The notes under the pieces are model-generated. The model did no database searches, was not told the origin of the DNA, and worked only from the letters and a program-made list of their open reading frames with translations. A program made the position numbers and the translations under genes. Positions 2,012 through 58,351 of a stretch of DNA of 64,000 nucleotides are shown one piece after another. The number at the start of each line of letters is the position of its first letter. The first letter of the stretch is position 1. Source of the DNA: a virus; IMG/VR virus record IMGVR_UViG_3300028572_000010, positions 62,001-126,000 of that record; one strand, 5' to 3'.

Positions 2012-3670
2012 ATGGCATATACAGTCCCCCAACTACAGATTAGTCAGCAATTTACTAATACGCCAACTTCTGTAGTAAGCCCACTTTCTGCCTTGATAAT
2101 TGGTCCCGCTTACACTAATAATTCTATTACTGCTGTAGCTCTGGGTACTGCTGGTACTGGTTACACAGCCCCAGTAGTTGCAGTAACTGATTCAACCGGT
2201 TCTGGTGCTGGTGCAATTATTACAGCTAATTGTGTTCCAGTAGGTGCAATTACTGCTGTAGCTCTGGGTACTGCTGGTTCTTTGTATACTCTTCCACCTA
2301 TAGTTTCAATTGCTGATCCTACTGGTTATGGTGCAGTAATCACATCAAATTTAAGTGGTAATGCAGTTGGTTCATATACTGTAGTTTCTGGTGGATTTAA
2401 TTATACTTCTCCAGTTATCACAGTAACTAATGCTCCTGGAGATTCTACTGGGCATAACGCTGTTCCTGGTGCTGCAACTCTATCTACTGGTGCTATTACT
2501 AGTTATACTGTTGTAAATGGTGGTAATAGTTATCTTACACCAGTTCTGGTGGTTACTGATTCTAATGGTAGTGGTGTAAATGCAGTTCCTGGCACTGTTA
2601 CTATAAGTTCTTCACCTGTTCTTAATACTGCTTATAGTTCTGCTATTGGCTCGGTCAACACAATAACAGATATCGAAAATTTGTTTGGTAATCCTACTGC
2701 TAATCCTAGTGCAAATCCTTTAGCTTATGGTCTTTATTGTGCAGTATTAAATAGTAATAACAATACTGTTTATTATGGTGCAGTTCCTACTAATAACTTG
2801 GCTGGCTACAATGCTATTTTAGCCTTGGCTGCTAAATCAAATAATTACTATGGTATTGTACCGTTAACTAATGATGCAACTATTTCTGGAATCAGTGCTG
2901 CCGTTATTAGTCATATAAACTCTATGAGTACACCAGCCAATGCTAAATGGCGTACTTGTTGGTTGTCTCCCTCACTTTCTGGTATTGGTAGTTTACAAAC
3001 ACAAATTAATGCATATATTGCAGCTCTTCCAGACGGATTAGCTGAGAATATTAACATTAATACTGGTCCTCGTAGAATACACTATGTTTTCCCTGATACT
3101 TATTATATTGGACCTAGTACTAATGTTTCTGGATATTACTTAGCTGCTTCATTAGCTGCTACGAGGTCTGGTGCTGCTCCTAATCAGAGTTTAACCAATA
3201 CTCAGGTTCTTGGACCTTACTATCTAGATAAACCTTTGTCTACTTTTACTGATACACAACTCAATCAATTAGCTGCGGCTGGTGTCTGGATTGTAACACA
3301 GGTAGGTAAAGGTGCTACAGCCTATACTAGACAGCAATTAACTGGTGATAATACTAATCTTAATTTCTCAGAAGATAGTATTACAGCTAACGTAGATAGT
3401 ATTAGCTATGCACTACAAGCTGCTCTAACTCCATTCATAGGTATTTACAACATTACACCAGCTACGGTTCTTGGAGTTAAAGCTGCTATCAATTCAGTAT
3501 TGCAATTTTACATGTTGGAAACCTTTACTGAAAGAGCTGGTAATCAATTAATCGGATATACTATTAATAGTATTCAGCAAGACCCAACTTATCTAGACCA
3601 GATTGATATTGTAGTTACATTGCAGGTTCCATACCCAATGAACTTTATCACCTTGTCTCTGAGTGTTTAA
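2012..3670 (+). CDS. tail sheath protein, 552 aa
   Basis: Contractile sheath subunit. The C-terminal 200 residues fit the sheath family: LGPYYLDKPLSTFTDTQLNQ, then a VWIVTQVGKG segment and a final PYPMNFITLSLSV strand typical of sheath C-termini. Residues about 30-210 are an insertion of about four Gly-rich repeats of the form ITAVALGTAGTGYTAPVVAV, probably a surface domain. It overlaps the next small gene by one base (TAATG) and is followed closely by the tail tube gene, the classical order. Length is in the usual sheath range. Confidence 0.85.
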   Translation: MAYTVPQLQISQQFTNTPTSVVSPLSALIIGPAYTNNSITAVALGTAGTGYTAPVVAVTDSTGSGAGAIITANCVPVGAITAVALGTAGSLYTLPPIVSIADPTGYGAVITSNLSGNAVGSYTVVSGGFNYTSPVITVTNAPGDSTGHNAVPGAATLSTGAITSYTVVNGGNSYLTPVLVVTDSNGSGVNAVPGTVTISSSPVLNTAYSSAIGSVNTITDIENLFGNPTANPSANPLAYGLYCAVLNSNNNTVYYGAVPTNNLAGYNAILALAAKSNNYYGIVPLTNDATISGISAAVISHINSMSTPANAKWRTCWLSPSLSGIGSLQTQINAYIAALPDGLAENININTGPRRIHYVFPDTYYIGPSTNVSGYYLAASLAATRSGAAPNQSLTNTQVLGPYYLDKPLSTFTDTQLNQLAAAGVWIVTQVGKGATAYTRQQLTGDNTNLNFSEDSITANVDSISYALQAALTPFIGIYNITPATVLGVKAAINSVLQFYMLETFTERAGNQLIGYTINSIQQDPTYLDQIDIVVTLQVPYPMNFITLSLSV

Positions 3671-11428: not shown

Positions 11429-13102
11429 ATGAATACAAATGTACAGATAACTTTGAGCAGCACCGACCCGATTATAACTGCTATTATCCCAAACTTAAAG
11501 GTATTAGGAGCTTCTATATCTTATGGAATAAATAGGTTGCCTGTAGCTCAAGTAGATGTAGATCCATCAGGACTGCAAACTTTCTGTGACTTTGATAACT
11601 ACCGTAGAAGAGATCTTACGGTAACTATAAAGACTGGTGGGTTATCCTATGATCCTGGTTGCTTACAATTTAATGGCTGGTTGGATGGTGTTAATATATC
11701 CCAACATCCTGGTAGCTTATCTTCGGCTTTAATAATCAAGCATAAGTTTGTATTGTTGAATGAAATTTATCCTAGAATATTAGGACTCAACGCCGGTACT
11801 GCTAATATGTTTACGGTCCAACAACCAGTAACTTATGAACCTAATCAATTTGGACCAGCTTCAGCCAATACTCAATTCTTGACCAGTGATTTACCTTTAT
11901 ATGGCATATTTAGTGGACCACAATTTACACCTGACCTGACATTACCTATTATTCCATTTATTATTCAATTATTTAAAATTGTAGTAGTATATCAAGCAAC
12001 TACTGGTGTTCTACAAGTAGCTAACAGTTATTTAAACATACAAAATGCTTTAGGCAAGGTTATCGAAGCCCAACAAATAAATGCCAATAATCTATTACCA
12101 GTTGTTAAGAATCTCTTAAATCAAATTAATACAAGTTATACTTCAAATGAGGTATTACAAGCTAGTAATACCTTATTAAGTGCTGGTAGTCCGACCATCG
12201 CCTGTTCCATCATAAGTGCCATGTCTGGTCTGGATGATACAGTACTTAATTCAATGATACGCTTTATAGGACAATATGGTTCGACATTTGTAGTTGGTAA
12301 TAAAACTGCCTTTGTTGTTCCTGAAGCGGCATATCTACAAGTTACTATAGATCCTTCACTACTAGTCAATAAAAGGTCAATACAAAGAAATGTGGCTTAC
12401 CCTGCTGATTATGATTCTTTTAACTTTAATGATAATGGAGAGAATACGATTAAAGGCGTATATGTAGTACCAGATACAGTAGGTTTGCAAGGAACTTGGG
12501 CAGTTGGAGGGGTTAATGTATTAAATGGTTATTATATAGATCCTGCTCCTAATACCTTAGGTAATATTGTAGTAAAAACACTACCTCAGTTAGCGGAATC
12601 ATACGTTAGTAGGATAGTTACTCAAGGTAGTATGGCTATTCAGACAAATATAAAAAATGGAGATAATTTGATAACTAAAAAAGTGGAAACTGAAGAAGCT
12701 ACTGATAATTTCATGGCTAATAAGAGCCAGATACTGGCTGAACGGGATAATATTTTATCATTCTTAAATGCCTGGGCTCAAGGTGAATATTGTAGAATAA
12801 AGTATGGCGATAGAGTTGGTTCGATATCAATGCCATTTAACAATAATTGGACTCCTGGTGCTCCTGGGGCTGCATATACTAATCATCCTGGTACTTGGGT
12901 TCACTTTTACGTAACTGAAGTAAGTCATTCATTTCAAGTAACTCCTGGCAGTGGTAATGCATCAACCAATGTAAACTTTAACGGGGGAAGACCTGGTAAA
13001 TCAATTAGTTCTGGCTTAACTTCTGTGCCTCTATATAATTATACATATGCTAATAGTCAGGATTTTTGTAACCATTTTGTAACTGATATATCTCCTAGTT
13101 AA
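11429..13102 (+). CDS. baseplate hub protein (gpD/gp27-like), 557 aa
   Basis: The N-terminus (ASISYGINRLPVAQVDVDPS), then RRRDLTVTIKTGGLSYDPGC and NGWLDGVNISQHPG, resembles the hub domain of protein D/gp27-type proteins, where strands present short epitopes around a central channel. The C-terminal part has YCRIKYGDRVGSISMPF and a VHFYVTEVSHSFQVTPGSG segment, also hub-like. It lies two genes downstream of the tape measure. The call is by fold pattern and order, not by an exact signature. Confidence 0.6.
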   Translation: MNTNVQITLSSTDPIITAIIPNLKVLGASISYGINRLPVAQVDVDPSGLQTFCDFDNYRRRDLTVTIKTGGLSYDPGCLQFNGWLDGVNISQHPGSLSSALIIKHKFVLLNEIYPRILGLNAGTANMFTVQQPVTYEPNQFGPASANTQFLTSDLPLYGIFSGPQFTPDLTLPIIPFIIQLFKIVVVYQATTGVLQVANSYLNIQNALGKVIEAQQINANNLLPVVKNLLNQINTSYTSNEVLQASNTLLSAGSPTIACSIISAMSGLDDTVLNSMIRFIGQYGSTFVVGNKTAFVVPEAAYLQVTIDPSLLVNKRSIQRNVAYPADYDSFNFNDNGENTIKGVYVVPDTVGLQGTWAVGGVNVLNGYYIDPAPNTLGNIVVKTLPQLAESYVSRIVTQGSMAIQTNIKNGDNLITKKVETEEATDNFMANKSQILAERDNILSFLNAWAQGEYCRIKYGDRVGSISMPFNNNWTPGAPGAAYTNHPGTWVHFYVTEVSHSFQVTPGSGNASTNVNFNGGRPGKSISSGLTSVPLYNYTYANSQDFCNHFVTDISPS

Positions 13103-13103
13103 T

Positions 13104-13745
13104 ATGAACGATATTAAAAAACTTTTAGCTGACTACGATAAAATGATAAAATATGAAGCTGGAAAATATAGTAAGTTAATTCCTTATGAAGTAGTATTGG
13201 CTGAGGCATATAAGTTAGCTCATAAAGCAGCTGAGTCATTTGATCCTTCTAAGAATATTAAATTCAGTACTCATCTTACTAATCAATTGAAGAAGCTTAG
13301 TAGAATATCAACTTTATATGGTGCTGCAGTGAGATTGCCTGAAAATAAACAATTTAAATCACAGCACATTAATGAGGCGGAACTATATCTAAAAGATGAA
13401 TTAGGTAGAGAACCATCAGCTATGGAAGTAAGTGAGTATACACATATACCATTGGTTCATGTAAATAAGATAAAACAAAACAAAGCCAATGAAGTTAATC
13501 TAAGTAGTTTAACACATACTCCAGTCTTTTTAACTAATCAAAATGATGATTGGCTTCATTTTGTATACCATGATTTATCAGATTTAGATAGAGTAATATT
13601 TGAATATAAAACTGGTTTTAATAATAAACCTACATTAAATAACGAAGAGATAGCTAAAAAATTGAATATCTCTACCAATACTGTAATAAGTAGGGTAAAA
13701 GTTATAGGAGATAAAGTTAAATCTGGTTGGGAGGATGATGAATAA
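13104..13745 (+). CDS. RNA polymerase sigma factor-like protein, 213 aa
   Basis: Resembles the sigma70 family. Region 2-like helices lie at residues ~10-70 (FDPSKNIKFSTHLTNQLKKL, similar to the FDPxxGxxFSTYA motif). A region 3-like LGREPSAMEVSEYTHIPLVH follows an RLPENKQ segment at ~80-125. A region 4 helix-turn-helix lies near the C-terminus (NEEIAKKLNISTNTVISRVK). It sits inside the baseplate operon, 2 bp after the hub gene and overlapping the next gene by one base (TAATG). It probably directs host RNA polymerase to phage promoters, perhaps late ones. Promoter specificity cannot be read from sequence. Confidence 0.75.
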   Translation: MNDIKKLLADYDKMIKYEAGKYSKLIPYEVVLAEAYKLAHKAAESFDPSKNIKFSTHLTNQLKKLSRISTLYGAAVRLPENKQFKSQHINEAELYLKDELGREPSAMEVSEYTHIPLVHVNKIKQNKANEVNLSSLTHTPVFLTNQNDDWLHFVYHDLSDLDRVIFEYKTGFNNKPTLNNEEIAKKLNISTNTVISRVKVIGDKVKSGWEDDE

Positions 13746-14158
13746 TGCCTCAAACATATACACAATTAGCAGAATCTATTAGAACTTGGTTAAGTGATAC
13801 ATATACTTCAATGTATACTGATCCTACTGAAAGACAGTGGTGTTTACTAGGAATAACTGATATACTTACACCAAGCAATATAGATACTTATTTTGATTCA
13901 AGTGTCCCTAATAAAGCATTTGATGCCCAAGTAGCAGCTGTGGCACAAGCTAAAACATTAACCAATGTACCAGTAGCCCAACTACAACTAGAAGCAGATA
14001 ATATATATAGTCTAGCTAAATCAATGGTGTATAGACATCAACCTAGGCTGAGAAATTATCGGGATGATATTGAGAATAAAGATATTAGAACCTCAACATC
14101 CATAGCAATAAGTTTAGGTAGATATAATTTGTTACAAGCAATAATGAAAGGTACTTAA
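13745..14158 (+). CDS. putative baseplate protein, 137 aa
   Basis: One-base overlaps (TAATG) with genes on both sides. Helical N-terminus (TYTQLAESIRTWLSDTYTSM) and an Arg-rich segment near the C-terminus (RHQPRLRNYRDDIENKDIRT). Upstream of baseplate J, where wedge subunits are common. No family recognised. Confidence 0.45.
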   Translation: MPQTYTQLAESIRTWLSDTYTSMYTDPTERQWCLLGITDILTPSNIDTYFDSSVPNKAFDAQVAAVAQAKTLTNVPVAQLQLEADNIYSLAKSMVYRHQPRLRNYRDDIENKDIRTSTSIAISLGRYNLLQAIMKGT

Positions 14159-14601
14159 TGCCAGTCTCAGGAACATCAGTAGATTATAGTGGTAGACTAG
14201 TTGATATGTATATTTCTGGTACTTTAAATCCATTAAGTACCGCTACTCAGAATATTACTTATTCATTTGGCTATCCTACTCAATATATAGCTGGGGTACA
14301 AAAGTTAATACAACGTTATATTATAAGTCTTATAAATTCAGGATTTGTTGAAGATTTGATAGGGTTATCCAGTAATAATATACAGACTGCCAAGAATTTA
14401 TTTAACAACTATAATGCTATTGTTATTCAAAACTTTAAGAGTTATCAGAATAGTCAAACACCCTCTTTATTCTTGGATGAACAGTTAAGCACAGTGCAAC
14501 TAAATAACGTGACCAGTACTGGGACATATGTAAATTATTCCATGACTTTAACTACTCAAGCAGGTACCACAGTTACAGTTTTATTACCTTTACCACTTTA
14601 A
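14158..14601 (+). CDS. putative baseplate wedge protein, 147 aa
   Basis: Position immediately before the baseplate J gene is typical of gp25/W-type wedge proteins, but the family motif was not recognised. The protein contains SFGYPTQYIAGVQKLIQRYI in a helical middle and a beta-strand-rich C-terminus (VNYSMTLTTQAGTTVTVLLP). Role inferred from position and size. Confidence 0.45.
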   Translation: MPVSGTSVDYSGRLVDMYISGTLNPLSTATQNITYSFGYPTQYIAGVQKLIQRYIISLINSGFVEDLIGLSSNNIQTAKNLFNNYNAIVIQNFKSYQNSQTPSLFLDEQLSTVQLNNVTSTGTYVNYSMTLTTQAGTTVTVLLPLPL

Positions 14602-14604
14602 TTT

Positions 14605-16179
14605 ATGTCAGAAACAATTGCCCAGACTTTAGCTAGATTGACTGCATTTATACAATCATCAGCACCTACTCTTGATTTATCTCCAGGTTCAGTATTTAGT
14701 GAGCTAATACTAGGTTTGGAATCTCAAATACAGAATCAGGTATATAATGATATTGATGCTATATCTACAGAACAAGCTATTAGTCAAGTCATCAATAGCT
14801 TAACACCTACTTACAGCTCTATAATAGATCAAATTGCTAGTAATTATAATGTAACTAGAATTCAAGGAGCGGCAGCTGCTGGTAATATTAAAGTATTCAC
14901 TTCTGCACAAAATGCCAACACTTATGTTTTACCTAGTGGGACTTCGTTTACCCAACCAGCTCTAGGCTATACTTATCAAACTACTAGTCCGATAACCTTA
15001 AATTCTGGTTCATTCATACTTCAAAATGGTTTGTATTACTTTATCATACCTGTTTATGCTACTACGATAGGTATTCAAACTGCAGTATCTAATCTAGCTC
15101 CATTCATACTAAATGCTACTAGTGCTATTCCAAACTATGTAAATTCAGTGGCTTATGGCACTTTCTCACAAGGTATTAATCAAGAAACAGACCAACAACT
15201 TATTACTAGATTCAGAACTGGGCTGGCTACAACAAATCTATTAACTGCTGCTAGTATTAATAATCAATTAACTCAGTTATATCCCAGCTTTAGAGGGGCA
15301 TATTTAGCAGATACAACTTCTCCAGTAAATATAAGAAGTCAAAATAACCTTCTAAATATAAAAGTACCTGGTTGTGTAGATGTATATGTTAAAAATGACA
15401 TTACTATTCCACAAACAAGCTTCCAAATAGTTGGTTCTTATGATTCAATCAATGCAGTCTGGGATGTTACTATTCCAGCTACTCAAGCTCCTGGATTTTA
15501 TAGAATAGTTAATGTACAGGATGCAGCAGCTACAAACTTAGCTTATTTACCATTTACAGTTACTTATGGTTATGATAATACTACTCCTAGTCAGATAACC
15601 ACACCTGCTCAAGCTAGATATTCCATTTATCAGACCGCAACTTTAGCTATTACTTATGTACCTCCTGTAATGAGTCAGCCGTTTACATTCAATATAACAG
15701 CTATTGCTCCATTTAATCTAAGTCCTACCCAAGCACTGTTTTTAAACAATAATAATAGGATTCCTTGTACCGATTATCTAGCTAAAGGTATTATTCCTTG
15801 TAATGTTAGCATGTCTATTTCTATTGTAAGAAATAATGTAACTGATGTAATTAATGTATCTGCTATCCAATCTGCCATATTTAATTATGTCAATAGCCTG
15901 CCTATCGGAAGTTCAGTAGCAGTAAGTCAAATAGTCAGTATTTGTCATCAGTTTAATATAGCTAGAGTAGATTTACCTATATTGTTAAATGGACAAATAC
16001 TAGCTCCTTATGATGCAAATCAAAACGCTACTGATGAAAATATTATAATTGAAGGAAATGACTTCTTAGAGATACCTACTACATTAACTCAATATGGTGT
16101 CTCTCCAGCAAATACAATGTTCTTCTTAAGCTATTATAATGATTCTGGGACACAAAATATTAATATAACTGTTAAATGA
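14605..16179 (+). CDS. baseplate J-like wedge protein, 524 aa
   Basis: Fits the baseplate J/gp47 family. The N-terminus reads PTLDLSPGSVFSELILGLES, followed by GAAAAGNIKVFTSAQNANTY and LPSGTSFTQPALGYTYQTTS, the typical extended motif of J proteins. The C-terminal half has a GSSVAVSQIVSICHQFNIAR helix often seen in the same family. It overlaps the next gene by 4 bp (ATGA). Product forms baseplate wedges linking hub and fibres. Confidence 0.75.
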   Translation: MSETIAQTLARLTAFIQSSAPTLDLSPGSVFSELILGLESQIQNQVYNDIDAISTEQAISQVINSLTPTYSSIIDQIASNYNVTRIQGAAAAGNIKVFTSAQNANTYVLPSGTSFTQPALGYTYQTTSPITLNSGSFILQNGLYYFIIPVYATTIGIQTAVSNLAPFILNATSAIPNYVNSVAYGTFSQGINQETDQQLITRFRTGLATTNLLTAASINNQLTQLYPSFRGAYLADTTSPVNIRSQNNLLNIKVPGCVDVYVKNDITIPQTSFQIVGSYDSINAVWDVTIPATQAPGFYRIVNVQDAAATNLAYLPFTVTYGYDNTTPSQITTPAQARYSIYQTATLAITYVPPVMSQPFTFNITAIAPFNLSPTQALFLNNNNRIPCTDYLAKGIIPCNVSMSISIVRNNVTDVINVSAIQSAIFNYVNSLPIGSSVAVSQIVSICHQFNIARVDLPILLNGQILAPYDANQNATDENIIIEGNDFLEIPTTLTQYGVSPANTMFFLSYYNDSGTQNINITVK

Positions 16180-17846
16180 GCTTCTTAAGTTACAATCAAG
16201 ATATTTATCCTGGTAACAATGCTACCGATAGTAGATATTTGTTCAATTCTCTAGGCTATTTCTGGCAGCGAGTATTTAGTGAGCAACAAGTTATTACTGG
16301 GTTGACTTCTGGGCAAGCAGCGGCAGCACAACAAGCATATACTAACATGCTTGAATTGATTAATAGTTATAGTAGTAAACAGATAAGTATATTTGATCAT
16401 CAAAATTGGTATCCTATTTACATATATTTATCGGCAATGGATAATAACACCTTATTATTTGGTGAAAATGTATTGTTTGGAGCTGAAGTGATGGGGAATC
16501 CGTATTTATTCGGAGCCCCCATACCTGAAGATACCAATGTTTATAGTGTAATTCTACCTAATAGCTTGATGTTAACTTCTATTATAGTAGATCAGATAAT
16601 CAATCCTAACTATGTATGGGTTAATGGTCAGAACTTTCAATTAATAAATGAAAGGTTATTCTTTTATGGAAACCCTTTTACCATACCTGGGGTAACTCCA
16701 ACTATCATCTATAATTCTGACGGTACAGATTCTGGAGATAGATTACTTACTCTATGGTGTTATAATGCGGCCATAGATAGTGAGAGTTTAAAATACAATA
16801 TAGGTTATTTATTCGGCCTTGATGTCCCTCATTCAGAACTAGGTAAACAAGTATTAGCAAGTGTAGTACAAATGTTTACTAATGGACCTACCATAAATGA
16901 TCTAAAAGCAATTGCTCTTAGTAGTCTAGGCTTGCCGGTCATTACTCAGCAATCAACTATCCAATCCATATTAAGTGATAATGGATATAATGTATTTGTA
17001 ACTAATACTGGAGCTTATAGATATCCAAATACATATACCATCAAACCTGGTATAATTGTAAGTTCTGTATTGAATATAGGTGATGTTCCAGTAGAAGTAG
17101 TAGAAGTATATGATGAAGTAAATACTGCTAATTGGTGGCAGACACAATTAGGTATTAATATATCTACGCCTACAACTAGATATGTAATTGACCCTACACA
17201 TCAATCAGGATTATTAGTACCTGTTACTGGATTATCTCTGGTTCCTTTAGTATTACCTGCTAGTATGATATTAGTCTCTGCTAATTATTCAGTTCAATTC
17301 AATAATGATCTGGAACCAATCTCTTTGGATAATAATGGATTTCCTATCTTCCCAGTAATAGGCAATCCAACTGACGTAGCTAACTATCAAGCATCATTAA
17401 AAAATACAGCATTTTTAAACTTGGTTAATACTCAAATATCCCCACCTCTATCCAATTCAAATCCAGTTAATGTAATTAATCCAGTAAATTTCATATTTAA
17501 TTGCATATTAAAGAGTTGTGCCGCTCTATTAAGGATAAAGTTCTTTACTACTGACCAAGTTGCAGCATTTCAACAATATTTCGAAGCAGTAAAGGATATG
17601 CTGCCTCCTAATATATTCTTGATAGTTTTATGTGATATTGGTAATGTTGGAGATGAAATTTACCAGATGAATACTGAAGTGATCGATGATGGAATGAGGA
17701 CTTATCAACCACTACAAAAGACTAACGATTTAGTATCATTTAACTCAGGTTCAGGATTGCTGATTAAAGATATGAGTCCGAGCCGGGTTATTGTAACTAA
17801 TCCTATTTCACCAATTACTGGTGTGAGCTTAACTATTGCATCTTAA
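16176..17846 (+). CDS. baseplate wedge/structural protein, 556 aa
   Basis: Translationally coupled to the J-like gene by ATGA. Large beta-rich protein with aromatic clusters (DHQNWYPIYIYLSAMDNNTL) and a C-terminal helix pair (VAAFQQYFEAVKDMLPPNIF). Its place after J corresponds to tail protein I or gp6/gp53-like genes. No exact family. A 40-bp gap with a promoter-like sequence follows. Confidence 0.5.
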   Translation: MSFLSYNQDIYPGNNATDSRYLFNSLGYFWQRVFSEQQVITGLTSGQAAAAQQAYTNMLELINSYSSKQISIFDHQNWYPIYIYLSAMDNNTLLFGENVLFGAEVMGNPYLFGAPIPEDTNVYSVILPNSLMLTSIIVDQIINPNYVWVNGQNFQLINERLFFYGNPFTIPGVTPTIIYNSDGTDSGDRLLTLWCYNAAIDSESLKYNIGYLFGLDVPHSELGKQVLASVVQMFTNGPTINDLKAIALSSLGLPVITQQSTIQSILSDNGYNVFVTNTGAYRYPNTYTIKPGIIVSSVLNIGDVPVEVVEVYDEVNTANWWQTQLGINISTPTTRYVIDPTHQSGLLVPVTGLSLVPLVLPASMILVSANYSVQFNNDLEPISLDNNGFPIFPVIGNPTDVANYQASLKNTAFLNLVNTQISPPLSNSNPVNVINPVNFIFNCILKSCAALLRIKFFTTDQVAAFQQYFEAVKDMLPPNIFLIVLCDIGNVGDEIYQMNTEVIDDGMRTYQPLQKTNDLVSFNSGSGLLIKDMSPSRVIVTNPISPITGVSLTIAS

Positions 17847-17886: not shown

Positions 17887-18411
17887 ATGGACTATTTAGA
17901 TAAAGCCTATACTGTAAATAAAGATGCATTTGGTAGAGTTCGGATATGGCGTGTTAATCCTGAAGGTAGTAAAGAACTGATACTTGAACAACAGAACACT
18001 ATTGTTTTAGGTGGAGCAGACATTACAGCCAAAGCATTGAGTGGATTACCTAATACTGGTATTACTCATATGTATGTAGCTAATGATAATGTAGGGGCTA
18101 TTCCTACAGTAACAGTCAATGATACGGTAACTAGTTTTGGTAGTACATTTACTAGAATACCATTAACATTTTCACCCAACTATTCAAATGAAGCAGGTTA
18201 TACATCAAATCTGGTCTATTTTAGTGTGTATATTACAGGTTCTACAATACCTAATGGAAATTTTATTACTAGTTTGGGTCTTGTCAATGCTAGTGTTCCG
18301 AGTAGCTCTTCTGGTGATAAGCTATTTTCTAGAATTGCTTTTAGCCCTATTACATATAATAGTACTCAAGGATTAGTAATTACTTGGGGATTAACTTTTC
18401 GTGCTTCTTAA
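17887..18411 (+). CDS. tail fibre/adaptor protein, 174 aa
   Basis: The N-terminal part DKAYTVNKDAFGRVRIWRVN and the following GGADITAKALSG resemble small phage structural proteins that sit between baseplate and fibres. The rest is beta-rich and ends in LVITWGLTFRAS. It has its own promoter-like element and is followed 3 bp later by the large fibre gene. Function inferred. Confidence 0.5.
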   Translation: MDYLDKAYTVNKDAFGRVRIWRVNPEGSKELILEQQNTIVLGGADITAKALSGLPNTGITHMYVANDNVGAIPTVTVNDTVTSFGSTFTRIPLTFSPNYSNEAGYTSNLVYFSVYITGSTIPNGNFITSLGLVNASVPSSSSGDKLFSRIAFSPITYNSTQGLVITWGLTFRAS

Positions 18412-27324: not shown

Positions 27325-27591
27325 ATGATAGGAACTATTGAATATGGCGAGCCGGAATTAGGTAGTCCAGCTATAATACCACCTATTAATCCTGTAATGC
27401 CTGGTATTCTAGGATTGTGTGAGTTAGGGCAACCGGTTTGGAGAGAGAATACCTTGGTATATAAAACTTCTGAGCATTGTTATCGTAGTCATGCCAGGAT
27501 AATTAATACTTCTGGCTTTACACAAACTAATAAAGTTAGTTATAACTGTAATGCCAGAATGACTAGAAGGCCGATTTATCTTCCTATTTAA
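27325..27591 (+). CDS. hypothetical protein, 88 aa
   Basis: Last gene of the rightward tail operon. Pro/Ile-rich N-terminus (SPAIIPPINPVMPGILGL) and three Cys. Its 3' end overlaps the convergent minus-strand gene by 8 bp, so the two transcripts meet tail to tail without a visible terminator hairpin. Confidence 0.45.
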   Translation: MIGTIEYGEPELGSPAIIPPINPVMPGILGLCELGQPVWRENTLVYKTSEHCYRSHARIINTSGFTQTNKVSYNCNARMTRRPIYLPI

Positions 27592-27817
27592 CGCCAGTAA
27601 TATCTGCGTTATAAGTAATAGGCAGATTATATACATTACCAGGGATTATATTACTCTTTCCTGAAGACTTCCTATAATTGAGAATATCATTAGTATGTTT
27701 CTTACTAAATGTATATGAAACACTCCTATAATGTTTATATTGATTCATCATCTGCTTAAACACTTCTGGAGTTAATGTGACCTCTTCCGGTATTGTAAGT
27801 AAATATCCTTTATTCAT
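27584..27817 (-). CDS. hypothetical protein, 77 aa
   Basis: ATG at 27817 gives MNKGYLLTIPEEVTLTPEVF. A TTG at 27853, overlapping the stop of the small gene upstream, would add 12 residues and cannot be excluded. Basic C-terminal half with aromatic residues (QYKHYRSVSYTFSKKHTND). Last gene of the leftward host-surface operon. Family not recognised. Confidence 0.45.
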   Translation of the reverse strand: MNKGYLLTIPEEVTLTPEVFKQMMNQYKHYRSVSYTFSKKHTNDILNYRKSSGKSNIIPGNVYNLPITYNADITGVK

Positions 27818-27849
27818 AATTGAAATACTATGATGAAATAAAGAACTAG

Positions 27850-30080: not shown

Positions 30081-31913
30081 TTATTTCTTAATACCTACTA
30101 ATACCCCATTACTATATACTAGAGTTATATTAGATGATATTACTTCATTAGTTGTCAATCCACCTATTAATCCTAGATAAGGTATATTTGTAACTCCACT
30201 ACCATTACCTGAAAATGTACCAGTTAACTTATTAGTATTGTTGTTAAGATTAATTGTATTGGAATATGTGCCAGAAATCAATGAAGAACTAATTGTACCC
30301 TTATTTAGGTTAGTAGTATTTAAATTAGTTAGATTAAGTCCACTCCCACTAAAAGTACCGGTAAAGTTATTAGAATAAGTTCCAGGTAATAGATTGGAGG
30401 CGGTTAGATTAGTAAGATTAACTCCATTACCTATATAATTACCTATGAATGTATTACTAGTACTTGTAAAGTTAACTATATTAGAGTAGTTACCTGATAT
30501 TAATGAAGATGTTATAAACCCAACCAAATTAGTAGTATTAATATTTGTTATAGTAGACCCATTACCTGTTATAGCACCATTTACAGTTAAATCATTCCTC
30601 ACATTTATAGGATCAGTGAATATATTAGTACCTATACCTAGCATTGGATTTCCGAATAAATCTGTATTGTTATGAATAGCTACATTAATGGAAGGTGCCC
30701 AGGTAAATATATTATAATTCATTGAACTATCATAACTATTACCGCTTACATTTAATCCAGTAAATGCCCCACCAGCTACGAATCCTTGCCAGATTGCATT
30801 AGATACACCTGCTACATATTCAACTACATTCCCTGTTATCCAGATGTTCGTAAATGAAGTATATATAGTTCCTGGATAAAAATAGAATGCACAGGGAGGA
30901 AATGGTTCAGCTCCTACATTAGTTGAGTTATTAAAGAAACTTAATATCCTTACATGATTATTGGCTATAGTTATATTAACTCTATCAAATCCTATAGCTT
31001 CTACTCCGTAATCACAATCCAGTATTTGATTATTTTGAATTATTACATTATGTGCCCAACCCGTATCTCCAGGTATGCCAACGTCACAACCTTCTAGATA
31101 ATTGCCTTCAATCAATACATCATGCTGCCAACCACCTAAACCGATACCAAACCATGAACCTTTTGAATATATAGGATAATTTGTACTAACTAATATAACT
31201 TTATTATTTCTTATAATACCAGATATAGTTTGAGCTGGTTCTGAATTACTACCAAAATTATCTCCACCACCTGCTAATGCTATACTAGTGATACCTCCAC
31301 CACCCCTATACTGAGATACTTCACATTCTTCTATAATATTTCCTATACTGTCTGGTAAATAATAATTTGCTATCACTATTCCCCAAGCCTCACTATTGCC
31401 ACCAAATTTACCGCAGTTAATTACCTTAACTCTTCTTATACTATTTTCTGTACCAATCAATCCAACTCCACTATATGTATCTAAAACATTACTTACATTA
31501 CAATCTATAGTTAAGTCTTGTATCTCATTGTTAGTAACTGAACCAAAATTTCCCATTACTGATACTCCTGAACCTCCTACAAAAGTTGGTGCTACTAATT
31601 GGACTATAGTATTATCAATGCCACTACCGCATACTTTCTGTCCAGACTTTAATCCATATCCTTGCCACGATCCTTTAGTTTGGAATGTACCTGTTAATAA
31701 GTGAATAGTAGAATTTGCTGGGATTAGACCCATATTCAAATCGAAATTAGTATTATTTGAACCGTCTAATGGATTATCTATAGTACCATTAGTAGGAAAG
31801 ATATTACCGGTATTAACTGTAGATACCCAATACTCATTAGGTATGGAGGTAGAAGCTAAAATATAGTTAATTGATAACAATAATAGAATAAATACTTGAT
31901 TCACGATCTTCAT
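30081..31913 (-). CDS. exported right-handed beta-helix protein with fibre-like tail, 610 aa
   Basis: Signal peptide (VNQVFILLLLSINYILA). Residues ~30-420 look like a parallel beta-helix of the pectate lyase/NosD type, with many short Asn-rich strands such as NVIIQNNQILDCDYGVEAIG. Residues ~440-590 hold several repeats of the form GNGVNLTNLTASNLLPGTYS, common in trimeric phage fibres. This suggests a polysaccharide-binding or -cleaving head on a trimeric stalk. AT-rich throughout, unlike its two neighbours. Confidence 0.6.
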   Translation of the reverse strand: MKIVNQVFILLLLSINYILASTSIPNEYWVSTVNTGNIFPTNGTIDNPLDGSNNTNFDLNMGLIPANSTIHLLTGTFQTKGSWQGYGLKSGQKVCGSGIDNTIVQLVAPTFVGGSGVSVMGNFGSVTNNEIQDLTIDCNVSNVLDTYSGVGLIGTENSIRRVKVINCGKFGGNSEAWGIVIANYYLPDSIGNIIEECEVSQYRGGGGITSIALAGGGDNFGSNSEPAQTISGIIRNNKVILVSTNYPIYSKGSWFGIGLGGWQHDVLIEGNYLEGCDVGIPGDTGWAHNVIIQNNQILDCDYGVEAIGFDRVNITIANNHVRILSFFNNSTNVGAEPFPPCAFYFYPGTIYTSFTNIWITGNVVEYVAGVSNAIWQGFVAGGAFTGLNVSGNSYDSSMNYNIFTWAPSINVAIHNNTDLFGNPMLGIGTNIFTDPINVRNDLTVNGAITGNGSTITNINTTNLVGFITSSLISGNYSNIVNFTSTSNTFIGNYIGNGVNLTNLTASNLLPGTYSNNFTGTFSGSGLNLTNLNTTNLNKGTISSSLISGTYSNTINLNNNTNKLTGTFSGNGSGVTNIPYLGLIGGLTTNEVISSNITLVYSNGVLVGIKK

Positions 31914-31988
31914 TTTAATTTAAGTCTGATTTCGGAATTCACTTAATAATATTGGTCAAAAACAGGATTGCGGTGGTTAGGGTCATAG

Positions 31989-34484
31989 TTAGAATCCAGT
32001 CACTGCTGTATGTGCCACCTGTCCAGCATCAAAGTACGTTCTGTATCCGATTGGTACAGCGGTCCCTGCTGCATTGTTGCTTTCCCACAAAAGCGATACG
32101 TTAGAAATTCCAAACCATGTCGGAGTACTCGTTAAGTTGTAAATGCGATATACTAGATTGGTCAATGCACTTCCATCAAATGTCGTGCGTTGTGCGCCAT
32201 TTGTATCCCCCAATTGAAACGACAGCTGTTGCATTCCCTGAATCCCGGCATCAACCGTCCCCATGCTGGAATTGTAATTCAGCCATGTTGCTGACCAGTT
32301 CGGATACGGCCACGGTTTGAATGCACAGAGATCCGCGAAACCGAGGTTAAAATTGTGCGCGAAAAGAGTGCGTGCGTCAGGATGGATGGGGGGCACGTCG
32401 GCCGAAAATGCGGCCTCGACATTTGACCCCACATAATCCGACTCCCGGATTACCCCGGCGATGGATTGCAGAAAGTTGGTATACAAGGCCGCTTGCACGT
32501 TCTTCCAATACAGATTCGTTGACGCCCCAAAGCGGTAGTCCCAGTGTGTATCTATTAACCAAATTGGGATGCCCACATTGTATAAGGGGATATAAAACGA
32601 GTTCCAATAAGAGATAATATTGGCAATGGACGTGTTGGCAAAGGCATCGTTGCGCGGCCCATCAGTCTCAAATATTACACTGGGATAGCGCAAGCGGTTT
32701 AGGTTGGTCATGGCACCCGGACTCCAAGAGTTTGTCCCATAACCCTCATTGTTATAGGTCGCCATCGTGCTTCCGGGCGAAGCATCAACAAGCGTCAGCA
32801 CGTCTGGGTTCTCGACCGCGAACAAATAAGGCATCGAGTTGGTGTAGACAATGCCGCTTCCCAGACCGACGAACTTGGCAGGTACAGCAAAATTAATGAG
32901 ACTCGACCCGCCAAAATCAACCGCCGAGTGATAACGCATTAAATCGGTCGCAAATTTGTATCCCGCGATAGCAACAGACGGGTTATTTTCCGCACTAACA
33001 TTGTACAGGATATAACCACCCAGAGTGCCCACGGCGTTGGTGATGAAGTTCCCAGGTGCACTCAAGGCAAAATTGGTTCCAGCACCACCAATCCATAATT
33101 GATTATAAGGGCCGCCTGCTGGACCAAAGTTGTTGACATTCGTTGGCACTGCCGCGAATGTGAAGAAACCAGGCTTCGACTGGCACCAATAACTGGCTTG
33201 ACCATTGGTGTTACCACTAATGCCGATGACATAAGGGATTCCCATCGGTGTGCGCGAATCGTACTGCCCATTCATCATGATCTTGGCTTGATTTGTCGAA
33301 ATATTAAATGGGTTCTGATAAGTGTTGAAATTTGTACCAAATGGGCTTGCCCATATCTGTTCATTTTGGTTTACGTCAATGGTCGTACCAGCAATGCCGG
33401 ACCAATTATTGGTATTATAAAGTGCCACCCATGGACACGCCCCATTACCCTCGTTAAGGTTATTTGCATCCATATTGCTGGCATTATTCCAATACCATAA
33501 GACCGCAAAGAAATTAGTTAATGGGGCAATGTTGACCGTGAAAATGTTGGTTCCGGACTCCCGTGCTCCGTTGATGTTCGGGCCTGTAAAACCGTAGCTC
33601 ACCCCCAATGGGACTGTCATCGGGTTCAGCATTAAATCGTAATTGGTGGGGTTGAACCGGCTATCAAAGCATCCAGCTGACACCACATTAGACGCGACAC
33701 TTAATGCGTACTGATCATTCCAAGCTGTTGTAAGAAATGACTGTGCTTCAATGTCTGATACATGATTTGTATTGCAGTAAGTTCTGGCAAGAGTGTCATT
33801 ATATATCGTTATTGCAGTATTTGTGCTGACGTAGTTATTCGTCGTCACCACACTCCCTGGCAGGCTGGCGATTGGGAGCGTGCCGGTTGCGGTGGAAACC
33901 GAGTAGTTGGTTGCGTTGACCAGATTCAATGCTGGTGATGCGCCATTAGTGACAAACGAAGGTAGATTGGTCGGGTTGATAATACCGACGATGTTTGGGC
34001 CGGACAGATTAGTCCCAGCGCCTAGATTCGATGGCTCGACGAGGTTAAATCCATTCGTCCACGTTGCTACTAAGTTTCCACCAGAATCACGAAGCTGTCG
34101 AGTAGTTGTATTAATTGCCTGAAAGCCACCAATGAAATCAAATCCAGTTAGTCCGTAAATCGTCTCACTAGCTGTCTGTGTAATGCCATTCGTAGCCGTA
34201 AAATTACCACTCACCAATAGTGTGTTGTTCACGGTTACATTATTACTAAAGGTTACAGGTCCAGTAGCATTATTACTAAGGATATTCTGAGGTATGGTAA
34301 ATCCTAACACTGTGCTATTAGTCAGTGTTGCAGCCAAAGCCGGAGCATTGGTCTGGAATAGATTAGTACTTGAACCTGCTAAAACCCCATTAGTATCAGT
34401 AATAACAGCTACTGATATAATATTAGCCTGGATTGATACTAAACTAAATAATAGGATTGATGATGCTATGAATTTCTTAAACAT
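31989..34484 (-). CDS. exported mosaic fibre/enzyme protein, 831 aa
   Basis: Signal peptide (KKFIASSILLFSLVSIQA) and an AVITDTNGVLAGSSTNLFQ linker nearly the same as in the 630-aa gene at 27956. Then a fibre-like repeat region. From about residue 90 onward the gene is much GC-richer and encodes a globular domain with YPSVIFETDGPRNDAF and GIPIWLIDTHWDYRFG, reminiscent of SGNH/GDSL-type esterases (weak), and HPDARTLFAHNF near residue 720. Probably acts on or binds surface glycans. Clear mosaic of AT-rich anchor and transferred domain. Confidence 0.5.
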   Translation of the reverse strand: MFKKFIASSILLFSLVSIQANIISVAVITDTNGVLAGSSTNLFQTNAPALAATLTNSTVLGFTIPQNILSNNATGPVTFSNNVTVNNTLLVSGNFTATNGITQTASETIYGLTGFDFIGGFQAINTTTRQLRDSGGNLVATWTNGFNLVEPSNLGAGTNLSGPNIVGIINPTNLPSFVTNGASPALNLVNATNYSVSTATGTLPIASLPGSVVTTNNYVSTNTAITIYNDTLARTYCNTNHVSDIEAQSFLTTAWNDQYALSVASNVVSAGCFDSRFNPTNYDLMLNPMTVPLGVSYGFTGPNINGARESGTNIFTVNIAPLTNFFAVLWYWNNASNMDANNLNEGNGACPWVALYNTNNWSGIAGTTIDVNQNEQIWASPFGTNFNTYQNPFNISTNQAKIMMNGQYDSRTPMGIPYVIGISGNTNGQASYWCQSKPGFFTFAAVPTNVNNFGPAGGPYNQLWIGGAGTNFALSAPGNFITNAVGTLGGYILYNVSAENNPSVAIAGYKFATDLMRYHSAVDFGGSSLINFAVPAKFVGLGSGIVYTNSMPYLFAVENPDVLTLVDASPGSTMATYNNEGYGTNSWSPGAMTNLNRLRYPSVIFETDGPRNDAFANTSIANIISYWNSFYIPLYNVGIPIWLIDTHWDYRFGASTNLYWKNVQAALYTNFLQSIAGVIRESDYVGSNVEAAFSADVPPIHPDARTLFAHNFNLGFADLCAFKPWPYPNWSATWLNYNSSMGTVDAGIQGMQQLSFQLGDTNGAQRTTFDGSALTNLVYRIYNLTSTPTWFGISNVSLLWESNNAAGTAVPIGYRTYFDAGQVAHTAVTGF

Positions 34485-34487
34485 AAA

Positions 34488-35000
34488 TTAATTAGATACT
34501 ACCCAAGCGAGTTGAGGAGGATTGTTGACACACTGTAAATTATAACTTAATCCAGTAGTGGTATTGCTATAAATAAACGATGAACCATTTGATGTACTAG
34601 ATCCTACTACAGATAATGTTACTGGATTATATAGATTATCATGAGAGATCCAAATATATAGATAATTACCGGTTAAATTAAGATTAGTATTTGATTCAAA
34701 ATCAAATAAGTTACTATTATAAGGATTAATAGTCTTTATAGTAGTAGACCCTGAATTACCGTCTACTACAACATTCTGCCTAATCGAACCAGCAATTAGA
34801 CCAGAACTAGTTAAAGGTAGATTGGAACTTGTAATAAGATAATTGATACTTACTTCTGCACCTTGAGCTGGAGGATTAGTACCATTTACTAAAGTTACGG
34901 TAAAGGTAGGAGAAGTCCAGCCACCACCTACTTGAATAGCATTGGCATCATATTCATAGGTTGCAGCCAAAGTCTTGTTAGTTATTAGATTTGTACTCAT
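34488..35000 (-). CDS. fibre-associated protein with NPPQLAW ending, 170 aa
   Basis: Beta-rich protein with an Ig-like start (GGGWTSPTFTVTLVNGTNPP) and a C-terminal module reading TGLSYNLQCVNNPPQLAWVV, the same module repeated three times in the plus-strand fibre gene at 18415. Probably a fibre tip or adaptor encoded next to the main leftward fibre gene (3 bp gap). Confidence 0.55.
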   Translation of the reverse strand: MSTNLITNKTLAATYEYDANAIQVGGGWTSPTFTVTLVNGTNPPAQGAEVSINYLITSSNLPLTSSGLIAGSIRQNVVVDGNSGSTTIKTINPYNSNLFDFESNTNLNLTGNYLYIWISHDNLYNPVTLSVVGSSTSNGSSFIYSNTTTGLSYNLQCVNNPPQLAWVVSN

Positions 35001-35002
35001 AA

Positions 35003-36100
35003 TTATACATTACCTGCATCTAATGTAGGTGTGGGTAAGGAGGTATTGCCTGTAGTTAGGGTATGCCATAGATTGGTTGTACTATTATGATATTGCATAC
35101 CTTTTACCAAATCAAATCTAAAGTTACTACCTGAACCTGTAGTTGTGGTTCCATCATCAAAAGCTAGTTCGGCTGGATTACTTATACAAAGAAGCGTATG
35201 CCATTTAGTAGTAGAAGTATTGTAGAATTGAAAACCTAGATTGTCTATAAATCTCACATTAGAGAAGTTATTATTAAATAAGTTATTATTAAAAGCTGGT
35301 TGGGGGGTTGAGCCGTAATTCATTAATGTATACCAGGAAGTTGTAGGTATATGATATAATTGCCACCCTATATTCTCTTTAAACCTAACTCCAGTAACCC
35401 CTAATGTATAATTACCATATAAATCCCTGGTCATATTTAAACTACTGTTATTATATATATAATTAACGTAATTTAAACTTGTACCACTAACAATACCTCC
35501 AGCATCGGTTATGTCTGGAAAGAAGGAAGCTCCTGATACCGCTTGAGTAGAAACTGCAGTAATCAAACCTTTAGCATTAACTGTAATTACTGGAATGTGT
35601 TGTAAATCACCAAAAATACCTACATTAGAGTTTACTGTAGCTAAGGTAGTTAATACTGATCCTACTGAAGTTGTTATATCTCCGGTCAAGGCTGGCATTC
35701 TTAGCGTAGGCAATGTTCCGGATATAATAGCAGAGGCATCAAAAGTAGAAGTAGTAGCTGCTAATGTATTGATAGCAGATTCAATATCAGTAAGTGTTTT
35801 TGCTGTAACTACTAAACTAATTATATCCCCTACTAATATAGACCTTGGACTAGTTCCTTCCTGTGCTCTAGTTATTGCTGTAAATGTATCCCCACTAACA
35901 GCAGTAACTCTAAAGATTTCCGAGTTTAATAAGGTTGGGAAAATACCTGTAGGATATACTACTACATTAAATGGCGGGCTAGGAAATAAGGCTCCACCAC
36001 CACTAGCTAGAGTTAAAGATGTTCCGGATAGGGCTGGACTAGGGGCACCTAATACTGAAGTACTAACCAGGTTCTTGTGAAGATCAAAAGTAAAAGCCAT
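35003..36100 (-). CDS. tail fibre protein with conserved N-terminal head, 365 aa
   Basis: The N-terminal ~110 residues carry PPFNVVVYPTGIFPTLLNSE, then FRVTAVSGDTFTAITRAQEG, a widespread phage fibre/tail attachment domain. The middle has an ALTGDITTSVGSVLTTLATV motif typical of tail fibres. The C-terminal 150 residues form three repeats of the form GWQLYHIPTTSWYTL. Start is ATG in ATAAATTTATG-like context. Likely a receptor-binding fibre attached to the baseplate. Confidence 0.7.
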   Translation of the reverse strand: MAFTFDLHKNLVSTSVLGAPSPALSGTSLTLASGGGALFPSPPFNVVVYPTGIFPTLLNSEIFRVTAVSGDTFTAITRAQEGTSPRSILVGDIISLVVTAKTLTDIESAINTLAATTSTFDASAIISGTLPTLRMPALTGDITTSVGSVLTTLATVNSNVGIFGDLQHIPVITVNAKGLITAVSTQAVSGASFFPDITDAGGIVSGTSLNYVNYIYNNSSLNMTRDLYGNYTLGVTGVRFKENIGWQLYHIPTTSWYTLMNYGSTPQPAFNNNLFNNNFSNVRFIDNLGFQFYNTSTTKWHTLLCISNPAELAFDDGTTTTGSGSNFRFDLVKGMQYHNSTTNLWHTLTTGNTSLPTPTLDAGNV

Positions 36101-36103
36101 AAA

Positions 36104-36478
36104 TTATGTTATGATTATCGTCTCGCCTATAAGTTTTCCATCATCTTCACCAGTATAACCTAAATGATACTCAGTATTAATTATTTTACCGTCACTTTGG
36201 ATAGTTATAGTATTTCTTCTAAAGTGCTTCAATTTTATATAGTTAGGATTAGTATGGGTTGGTTTAAATATTATATGCTTTTTAAAATAAAATGTTAATG
36301 TAGCTAGGTCCAAACTAAACCAGTTTTCGTCATTATAGAGAGTAAATGTCTTAATTTCATCCAATTTAAGATCAGAATAACAGCTTTTAGTAGGATCTAT
36401 AATAGAAATATCTTCCTCATTCTGTTCATAAGTAGACCCATCATTATAAACTACTTTGTATAAATATTTAAACTTCAT
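36104..36478 (-). CDS. hypothetical protein, 124 aa
   Basis: Overlaps the upstream gene by 11 bp. Beta-rich, strongly charged, with RRNTITIQSDGKIINTEYHL near the C-terminus. Part of the leftward fibre operon. Could be a small virion component; family not recognised. Confidence 0.45.
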   Translation of the reverse strand: MKFKYLYKVVYNDGSTYEQNEEDISIIDPTKSCYSDLKLDEIKTFTLYNDENWFSLDLATLTFYFKKHIIFKPTHTNPNYIKLKHFRRNTITIQSDGKIINTEYHLGYTGEDDGKLIGETIIIT

Positions 36479-37025: not shown

Positions 37026-37054
37026 ATAATACAATCAAGTTAATCTATATTCAA
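37026..37054 (-). promoter_or_regulatory. sigma70-like promoter for the leftward fibre operon
   Basis: On the minus strand TTGAAT (37049-37054), a 17-bp spacer and TATTAT (37026-37031) lie 6 nt before the ATG at 37019. Like other promoters in this window the transcript would begin at the start codon. Confidence 0.5.
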
Positions 37055-37111
37055 GGCAAACTTACTGATAGCTAAAAAAAGGTGTGCTTTGCAGCTATCA
37101 CCTTAGGTAGA

Positions 37112-57396: not shown

Positions 57397-57912
57397 TCAG
57401 ATTTTGGTTTTGATAATGTGTTCAACCAGATTGATTAACTTCTTATACTGCTTACCAAACTTATTGTTTTTATGAGTCTTTTCTACTTTGTTTTTGAACT
57501 CAGTCAAATTTCCTGTAAAACAACCACAATCTACTTGAACATTCTTTCCTACCCAATAAATGGTAGTTTGAGCGTTTCTAGAACCAATTTTAGAAGAAGT
57601 AAATCTTTGTGGGTTAGATTTGAAACCAATACAAGTAATACAACTTATACAATCTCTACAATCTCTACAATAATTACAACTATTACAATCTCTACAATCA
57701 TAGCAACCATTACAACCTTTACAATAAATACAATCATTGCAATATCTACAATTACTACAATTATTACAACTACTACAATTATCACACCAACCACAATCAA
57801 TACAACTAGTACAACCGGTTAGGGTAGGTGAGTATAGAGTAGCTAATTCTTCTGATAACCAGCTATTATTGTTTTCGTCATACCATCTATTATATCTTTT
57901 TGTTATTTTCAT
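57397..57912 (-). CDS. cysteine-triplet-repeat protein with a distinct C-terminal domain, 171 aa
   Basis: Start set at ATG 57912 (MKITKRYNRWYDENNNSW) to match the family; an ATG at 57930 is also in frame. About 21 triplets, then a domain absent from the other members (KIGSRNAQTTIYWVGKNVQV, CGCFTGNLTEFKNKVEKTHK). That domain resembles a C-terminal domain I recall from other phage and bacterial Cys-repeat proteins (unverified). No R-x-L-E tail. 3 bp before the MYG1-like gene. Confidence 0.7.
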   Translation of the reverse strand: MKITKRYNRWYDENNNSWLSEELATLYSPTLTGCTSCIDCGWCDNCSSCNNCSNCRYCNDCIYCKGCNGCYDCRDCNSCNYCRDCRDCISCITCIGFKSNPQRFTSSKIGSRNAQTTIYWVGKNVQVDCGCFTGNLTEFKNKVEKTHKNNKFGKQYKKLINLVEHIIKTKI

Positions 57913-58141
57913 AGTATTCAAAAGCTTCATCTAATTGTTTTAAAGCCTGGTCACGTTTTGACCCTTCCTTATACTTGAGATTAATACCTTTATTACCAGT
58001 AAGTCCAATATACAACCATGCTTTAAGTAGATCTCTAGGTTGAGGTGATGGACTATCAAACTCATTATATGCATAATAATTAGTTATAGCTGATAAAACT
58101 AACCTATGTCCATCTATAAATATAATTTTAGAATTTTTCAT
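57890..58141 (-). CDS. hypothetical protein, 83 aa, overrun by a cysteine-repeat gene
   Basis: Alpha/beta small protein (KNSKIIFIDGHRLVLSAITN; RDLLKAWLYIGLTGNKGINL). Its last residues (FEYYENNKKI) are read out of frame from the start of the cysteine-repeat gene, with the same GAATACTATGAAAATAAC bases as at 42000. First gene after the tRNA-Cys. Confidence 0.5.
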   Translation of the reverse strand: MKNSKIIFIDGHRLVLSAITNYYAYNEFDSPSPQPRDLLKAWLYIGLTGNKGINLKYKEGSKRDQALKQLDEAFEYYENNKKI

Positions 58142-58164
58142 TGTTTTAGTTTTGTTGCTTTGGT

Positions 58165-58238
58165 TGGAGACGGTAATAGGAATTGAACCTATGAAACTTG
58201 TTTTGCAGACAAGTGCTTTGCCATTCAGCCATACCGTC
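58165..58238 (-). tRNA. tRNA-Cys (anticodon GCA), CCA encoded
   Basis: Complete cloverleaf on the minus strand: acceptor GACGGTA/TACCGTC, anticodon arm CTTGT-CTGCAAA-ACAAG with anticodon GCA (58204-58206), T-arm ATAGG-TTCAATT-CCTAT, discriminator U73 and encoded CCA (58165-58167). U73 is a known identity element of tRNA-Cys. A Cys tRNA in this phage fits the many Cys-rich repeat genes. Confidence 0.93.
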
Positions 58239-58351
58239 TAGGATTAAAATTAGTACAGTACTTCAGCTTACGTGATGACTAAATATTTAGCAGGAACGAG
58301 TATGAAGTACTGTAATATCATCATAATATTCGTGACCTATAATGATGAAAG
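58239..58351 (-). other. intergenic stretch with two strong inverted repeats
   Basis: Between tRNA-Cys and the tRNA-like element. Stem 1: CAGTACTTCA (58256-58265) with TGAAGTACTG (58303-58312), 10 bp perfect. Stem 2: 58318-58328 with 58338-58348, 10 of 11 pairs. No coding frame seen. These may be processing sites or parts of a longer structured transcript. Confidence 0.5.

Follow-up and report, generated by a model that had tools for sequence, protein, structure and literature searches.

Phage transcription systems and a sigma70-family gene

Tailed phages (Caudovirales) with a multisubunit RNA polymerase have been reported in the parts available to us of the mReC paper (PMC7481178). The phiKZ and AR9 phages also have a multisubunit polymerase, which phiKZ-type phages package for their early genes, but their specificity subunits gp68 and gp226 have no sequence similarity to sigma70. 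T4, with its gp55, and jumbo phages that lack a polymerase encode sigma70-family proteins. As far as the reviews were accessible, polymerase-bearing jumbo phages are described in them as being without sigma70 homologues, and sigma-bearing ones as being without polymerase (PMC7824862, PMC7598289, PMC13282480). Here we describe a lineage which, unlike this rule, has both. The gene in question is an open reading frame (ORF) at positions 13104-13745 (+) of a 64,000-nucleotide stretch of virus DNA (the window; positions 62,001 to 126,000 of IMG/VR record IMGVR_UViG_3300028572_000010, which has 127,352 bases in all). We consider it probable (roughly 0.6) that its product, P0001, is carried in the virion as the sigma70 specificity subunit of a multisubunit RNA polymerase that the phage itself encodes. 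The grounds for a packaged sigma are its membership of the sigma70 family, a conserved operon site, lineage-wide coupling to the polymerase, and the published finding of both a homologue and the polymerase in virions of Salmonella phage Arash.

P0001 has 213 amino acids (aa), along which sigma70 regions 2, 3 and 4 are found in order. Pfam Sigma70_r3 matched above its curated cut-off (28.8 versus 25.3 bits, E = 1.3e-6; aa 87-127, 13362..13484), while regions 2 and 4 stayed below theirs (E = 0.08 and 0.08-0.14). PHROG 351, 'RNA polymerase sigma factor', spans aa 4-200 (E = 2.2e-11), and the closest solved sequence is that of the WhiG sigma (6pfv, E = 1.7e-5, aa 6-138). In an AlphaFold2 model built from 21 sequences (mean predicted local distance difference test score, pLDDT, 78.2; predicted template modelling score, pTM, 0.36), aa 1-73 (13104..13322) are predicted to form the region 2 domain and superposed on sigma2 domains at 1.6 Å (VIA-align: 8b3z_D, 1.6 Å over 73 residues; 5h6x_A, 1.7 Å over 74). 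The predicted helix-turn-helix domain of region 4, aa 146-213 (13539..13742), superposed on sigma4 domains at 2.0 Å (7kuf_B, over 68 residues) and coincides with the sub-threshold Pfam match. Against the whole of E. coli sigma70, 199 residues of the model were matched and the domain arrangement differed (root mean square deviation 26 Å). The homologues, at 24-73% identity, all retain regions 2, 3 and 4 and the helix-turn-helix. A first-pass annotation, made from the letters of the window alone, had described a sigma70-like protein with these three regions; Pfam, PHROG 351, the WhiG match and the folds of the model bear this out, and the profile search by which it proposed to challenge the assignment placed the protein in the family, with Sigma70_r3 over its cut-off and PHROG 351 agreeing.

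Pairing with a phage-encoded RNA polymerase

A multisubunit RNA polymerase is encoded outside the window in the same record. It comprises a 931-aa ORF in which Rpb2_6 (E = 4.8e-45) is fused to Rpb1_1 and Rpb1_2, that is, beta to beta-prime, and additional beta and beta-prime pieces are found elsewhere in the record. Because it lies outside the window, this polymerase could not be seen in the first-pass annotation, from which the partner was missing; the phage's own enzyme is the most likely partner of the sigma factor. In encoding beta and beta-prime the record agrees with the mReC phages, which are likewise tailed phages with bacterial-like subunits found in IMG/VR, a likeness of gene content; the word sigma is absent from the main text of that paper as it was available to us (PMC7481178).

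When the polymerases of the lineage were aligned to E. coli RpoB/RpoC, the catalytic DxDGD core was found to be retained in all except the ORF of the window's phage, in which it is interrupted by an apparent split intein, and the clamp-helix region was retained as well. In bacteria, the clamp helices are the dock of sigma2. The polymerase model (931 aa, pLDDT 73.9, pTM 0.47) has a predicted helical hairpin at this region, formed by residues 719-733 and 742-760.

The intein seems to split the active-site motif between L008:11764-14559 and L008:14591-16312 (record 31764-34559 and 34591-36312). Its N part has only about 13 aa (GAD/SIVDYIIYREKIN, then a stop), and its C part, with a LAGLIDADG domain, is located in a separate ORF ending KN/SDGDQ; the identical 931-aa protein occurs in three other assemblies. 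If the split intein is real, the polymerase would be active only after trans-splicing. The second intein ORF has a host-type promoter match of its own at record position 34556 (TTGACA, 17 bases, TATTGT), between the polymerase ORFs, possibly allowing separate control of polymerase maturation.

The two genes were found to travel together. Rpb2_6 was present in 19 of 32 records with a sigma relative; the 13 without it comprised 11 fragments of 9.7-80 kb and two 350-kb jumbo records (phage Munch and G025), whose sigmas are distant and stand in a different gene context. Among sigma-bearing records of at least 90 kb, 19/21 had the polymerase, and the two misses were such distant sigmas in other surroundings. 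For sampling in the reverse direction, the polymerase alignment was used to collect 541 IMG/VR relatives, 80 of which were kept; in the reverse set of 32 of these 80 (contigs of at least about 93 kb, minus two records already counted) the sigma was detected in 32/32 at E ≤ 4.8e-41. The sigma profile had no match in T4, phiKZ, KVP40, S-PM2, SPO1 or AR9 (0/6 reference phages), and none in a further seven isolates that encode a phage polymerase (0/7 at E ≤ 0.1, and PF04539 likewise 0/7), and the pairing is therefore specific to one lineage and not common to all polymerase phages. T4, KVP40, S-PM2 and SPO1 differ from the window's lineage also in lacking a polymerase of their own (Rpb2_6 in 0/4). 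Trees of sigma and polymerase from 18 genomes had 10 of 15 splits in common, with support of 0 to 0.86 for the splits seen in the sigma tree only, and the pairwise distances were correlated at r = 0.953, a value reached in 0/2000 permutations. L035, L005, L006 and phage Munch also have distant sigma relatives, which lie outside baseplate operons in records that contain no phage polymerase.

The host polymerase is the usual partner of phage sigma factors, according to the portions at hand of two reviews (PMC7598289, PMC13282480), and the window's sigma might likewise bind the host core enzyme while the phage polymerase uses another factor. Twelve of the 18 host-type promoter matches in the window's phage lie in intergenic regions, as this explanation would have it. 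It is nevertheless improbable in view of the full pairing in the polymerase-chosen records, the absence of the sigma from the six reference phages and seven isolates, and a spectral density of the sigma in Arash virions similar to that of the phage polymerase, as given below.

Published reports of a similar combination were also considered. Yersinia phage YerA41 is reported to express a 'sigma factor' late and to have it, along with polymerase subunits, associated with its particles (PMC7354516). It was rejected as a sequence relative: neither the sigma profile, nor PF04539, nor PHROGs and Pfam searches of 10 candidate proteins revealed a sigma70 in its GenBank record.

Operon position and virion content

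The sigma gene is embedded in a block of tail genes, all on the + strand. Upstream, a 557-aa hub-like gene (11429..13102) stops one base short of the sigma start; it is a distant relative of Arash gp8, a cell wall hydrolase and virion protein, and in relatives the two profiles converge on the same ORFs. The stop codon of sigma overlaps the ATG, at 13745, of a small 137-aa gene (13745..14158), followed by a 147-aa gene (14158..14601) that lies downstream of sigma throughout the lineage. Two genes after the overlap partner comes the Baseplate_J protein of 524 aa (14605..16179, Pfam PF04865, E = 2.8e-7), and then a 556-aa baseplate gene (16176..17846) and a 174-aa gene (17887..18411). By comparison of the loci, the 137-, 147-, 556- and 174-aa genes are the counterparts of Arash gp11, gp12, gp14 and gp15, and the Baseplate_J protein is that of gp13. 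A tail sheath gene (2012..3670, PHROG 279, E = 3.3e-10) belongs to the same block. The coupling to structural genes seen in the first-pass annotation is thus confirmed by the 13102/13104 spacing, the overlap at 13745, Baseplate_J and the tail sheath.

This position is conserved. Of 28 sigma loci, several of which are near-identical records, 25 have a Baseplate_J relative downstream of sigma and in the same orientation, and the three loci without it (L005, L006 and L035) were also without Rpb2_6. In 30 short loci of the polymerase-chosen set, the 147-aa relative followed sigma in 28 and Baseplate_J in 25; with ten longer stretches added, the counts rose to 32/32 and 31/32, G057 being too short to tell. 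A 1219-aa open frame in G059 that appeared to be a sigma-hub fusion, and which would have proven sigma to be a virion part, was rejected: the sigma begins at its own Met, the sequence upstream of it is a spurious frame of high G + C content, and the hub is encoded in another frame.

Virion data are available for Salmonella phage Arash, which like the window's phage has a homologous sigma, Gp010, at the same tail-operon site together with a phage polymerase in its genome (PMC10585845). Arash differs in that the host and the phage are distant from those of the window; its genome also encodes a second sigma, gp196, and contains phage-specific promoter motifs that were not observed for the phage of the window. 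In the main text and table of that paper, as far as available to us, 116 virion proteins are reported by mass spectrometry. Gp010 is among them with 100% coverage, 24 unique peptides and 467 spectra; the polymerase Gp206 has the most spectra (3516) and Gp216 has 1210, while the second sigma, Gp196, is not listed in these parts (PMC10585845). Absence from virions and from RNA polymerase pull-downs had been named in the first-pass annotation as a ground for giving up its reading, and the homologue is instead found in the particles. The GenBank label 'structural protein' had suggested that Gp010 went undetected by mass spectrometry, an idea dropped because Table 2 of PMC10585845 states the opposite. 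The section of the paper used here does not propose the sigma and the polymerase as one packaged enzyme.

To compare abundances, 22 of the listed virion proteins, selected by us, were normalised by length, with the caveat that spectral counts are crude. Gp010 had 200 spectra per 100 aa, against 231 for Gp206, 200 for Gp216 and 243 for the helicase Gp217; the tail proteins Gp8, Gp12, Gp13, Gp14 and Gp236 had 66-151, the major tail protein 144, the portal 152 and the capsid 434. The spectral density of the sigma follows that of the polymerase and not that of its operon neighbours. This bears on a further explanation, that a sigma-like protein has become part of the baseplate and lost promoter recognition. 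A fixed site between hub and wedge genes and the presence of the homologue in virions (PMC10585845, in part) would suit it, but regions 2, 3 and 4 and the helix-turn-helix are retained at 24-73% identity, and a density that tracks the polymerase, not Gp8, Gp12, Gp13 and Gp14, makes such a co-option very hard to credit.

Ten nonstructural proteins in the comparison had 73-138 spectra per 100 aa, so that carry-over is compatible with the spectra taken by themselves. Better separation came from unique peptides, with 10.3 per 100 aa for Gp010 and 9.8 for the major capsid protein, and 0.2-2.9 for the ten nonstructural proteins (primase 0.2, ligase 0.6, ribonucleotide reductase 1.4). Carry-over matters for the explanation of the sigma as a late regulator, which would be made with the tail genes and steer the phage (or host) polymerase to late promoters in a positive loop. 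The gene does lie inside the late structural operon, the motif [CT]TAAA[AC]TA on the structural strand is enriched in Arash-type genomes, and carry-over is a possibility raised by the Arash authors themselves (PMC10585845); with the unique-peptide density of Gp010 at the level of the capsid and far above that of primase, ligase and reductase, we regard this explanation as unlikely. The first-pass annotation had left the choice between a late regulator and a packaged sigma open, and the published Arash data favour the packaged option over a purely late regulator.

If the sigma is packaged, it would supply the promoter-specificity subunit of the phage's own polymerase, to which it would bind. 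Late in infection the gene would be transcribed along with those of the tail tip, and its product would enter the particle together with the polymerase, presumably in the window's phage as well. After injection, the packaged holoenzyme would start at once at phage-specific promoters, whichever of these it may read.

Several points weigh against a packaged subunit of this kind. Region 2.3 of the window's sigma is without both Trp residues of sigma70, having N60 and Q61 at these positions. The Trp pair serves to melt the -10 element in housekeeping sigma70/SigA, and since it is absent, the window's sigma is not classed as housekeeping-type; the wider sigma70 family is not known to need the pair. 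N60 and H57 are nearly invariant across the sigma family, and E34 aligns with E407 of sigma70. An aligned E34 with a replaced Trp pair is what would be expected if the core is shared and the promoter is different, as judged from the alignment. With a pTM of 0.36, the domain arrangement of the sigma model is uncertain, and the sigma and polymerase structures were each predicted singly. The coupling and the agreement of the trees can stem from vertical inheritance in one lineage. The window's phage and its relative G002 show no enrichment of either Arash promoter motif, and the intergenic placement of the host-type promoters in the window's phage also counts here; their number there is not above chance (18 versus 14.9). 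Finally, the virion data stem from Arash, to whose Gp010 the window's sigma is only 28% identical, carry-over proteins stand in its virion list (primase and ligase, with 2 unique peptides each), and the Arash authors give early transcription and carry-over as alternatives (PMC10585845).

Promoter classes, a second sigma and significance

Two motifs are overrepresented in Arash and its relatives G018 and G024. The first, GGTATAAG, occurs 30, 33 and 31 times, respectively, versus about 3 expected, and only 1/30, 1/33 and 1/31 of these occurrences are on the structural strand. The second, [CT]TAAA[AC]TA, occurs 22, 19 and 23 times versus 4.6, 3.0 and 3.6 expected, with 19/22, 17/19 and 22/23 on the structural strand. 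An unbiased motif search likewise returned GGTATAAG-type patterns in all three genomes; in G018 it also returned TTAAAATA, on the structural strand. Arash-type genomes thus have, to judge by their sequences, two putative phage-specific promoter classes partitioned by strand. Candidate motifs of their own in the window's phage (G000), G002, G005, G006, G029 and G045 were discarded, the search having yielded ribosome sites, terminators or low-information patterns. A TTTTTTTAGCTATCAGTAA-like repeat was observed in the window's phage after terminators and before promoter-like sites, at about 37035-37100 of the window and upstream of record 16115-16924 and 27586-27840.

For the second sigma, of gp196 type, 6 of the 8 loci read show a host-type promoter (TTGACT, 17 bases, TACTAT). 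This sigma is accessory, being present in 13/19 polymerase records of one set (plus Munch) and 4/19 of another, and none was found in the window's record. Two-piece matches and an in-frame TGA had raised a programmed frameshift in this gene, which was ruled out because the annotated start is too far upstream; the true start is the Met of MGLTKYY, after a ribosome site. Gene gp196 of OQ632216 (120656-121693) is an instance, with the host-type promoter inside the annotated gene.

These data suggest a hypothetical cascade, in which the packaged sigma would read the first (GGTATAAG) class and the early sigma the second. More broadly, and only tentatively, we propose that a large tailed-phage lineage packages a full bacterial-type holoenzyme, made of its own beta-beta' and a true sigma70 encoded among the baseplate genes. 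Early promoters of the GGTATAAG class might then be read by the packaged sigma in Arash-type phages, and the early-made gp196-type sigma, expressed from a host promoter and absent from virions, might redirect this polymerase to promoters on the structural strand.

Other features were noted in passing. At about 58150-58250 of the window, between genes and upstream of ORF 57890-58141, a sequence resembling a tRNA with a GCA anticodon was recognised by eye. L009:11829-13229 encodes a LigD 3'-phosphoesterase domain (E = 2.6e-10) and ligase-like domains in one protein, and L008:7837-10737 a SNF2-type helicase with an inserted LAGLIDADG/homing endonuclease domain.

In the literature as far as it was available to us, no report was found of a pairing of sigma and polymerase across the lineage, of a fixed site of the sigma among the baseplate genes or of two classes of promoter. 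The sigma70 factor most likely serves a packaged phage polymerase. If the packaged holoenzyme is true, it breaks the described rule that phages have either a polymerase or a sigma; sigma-dependent initiation could then also be studied in a minimal phage system that grows in Salmonella in the form of Arash and for which promoter candidates are ready.
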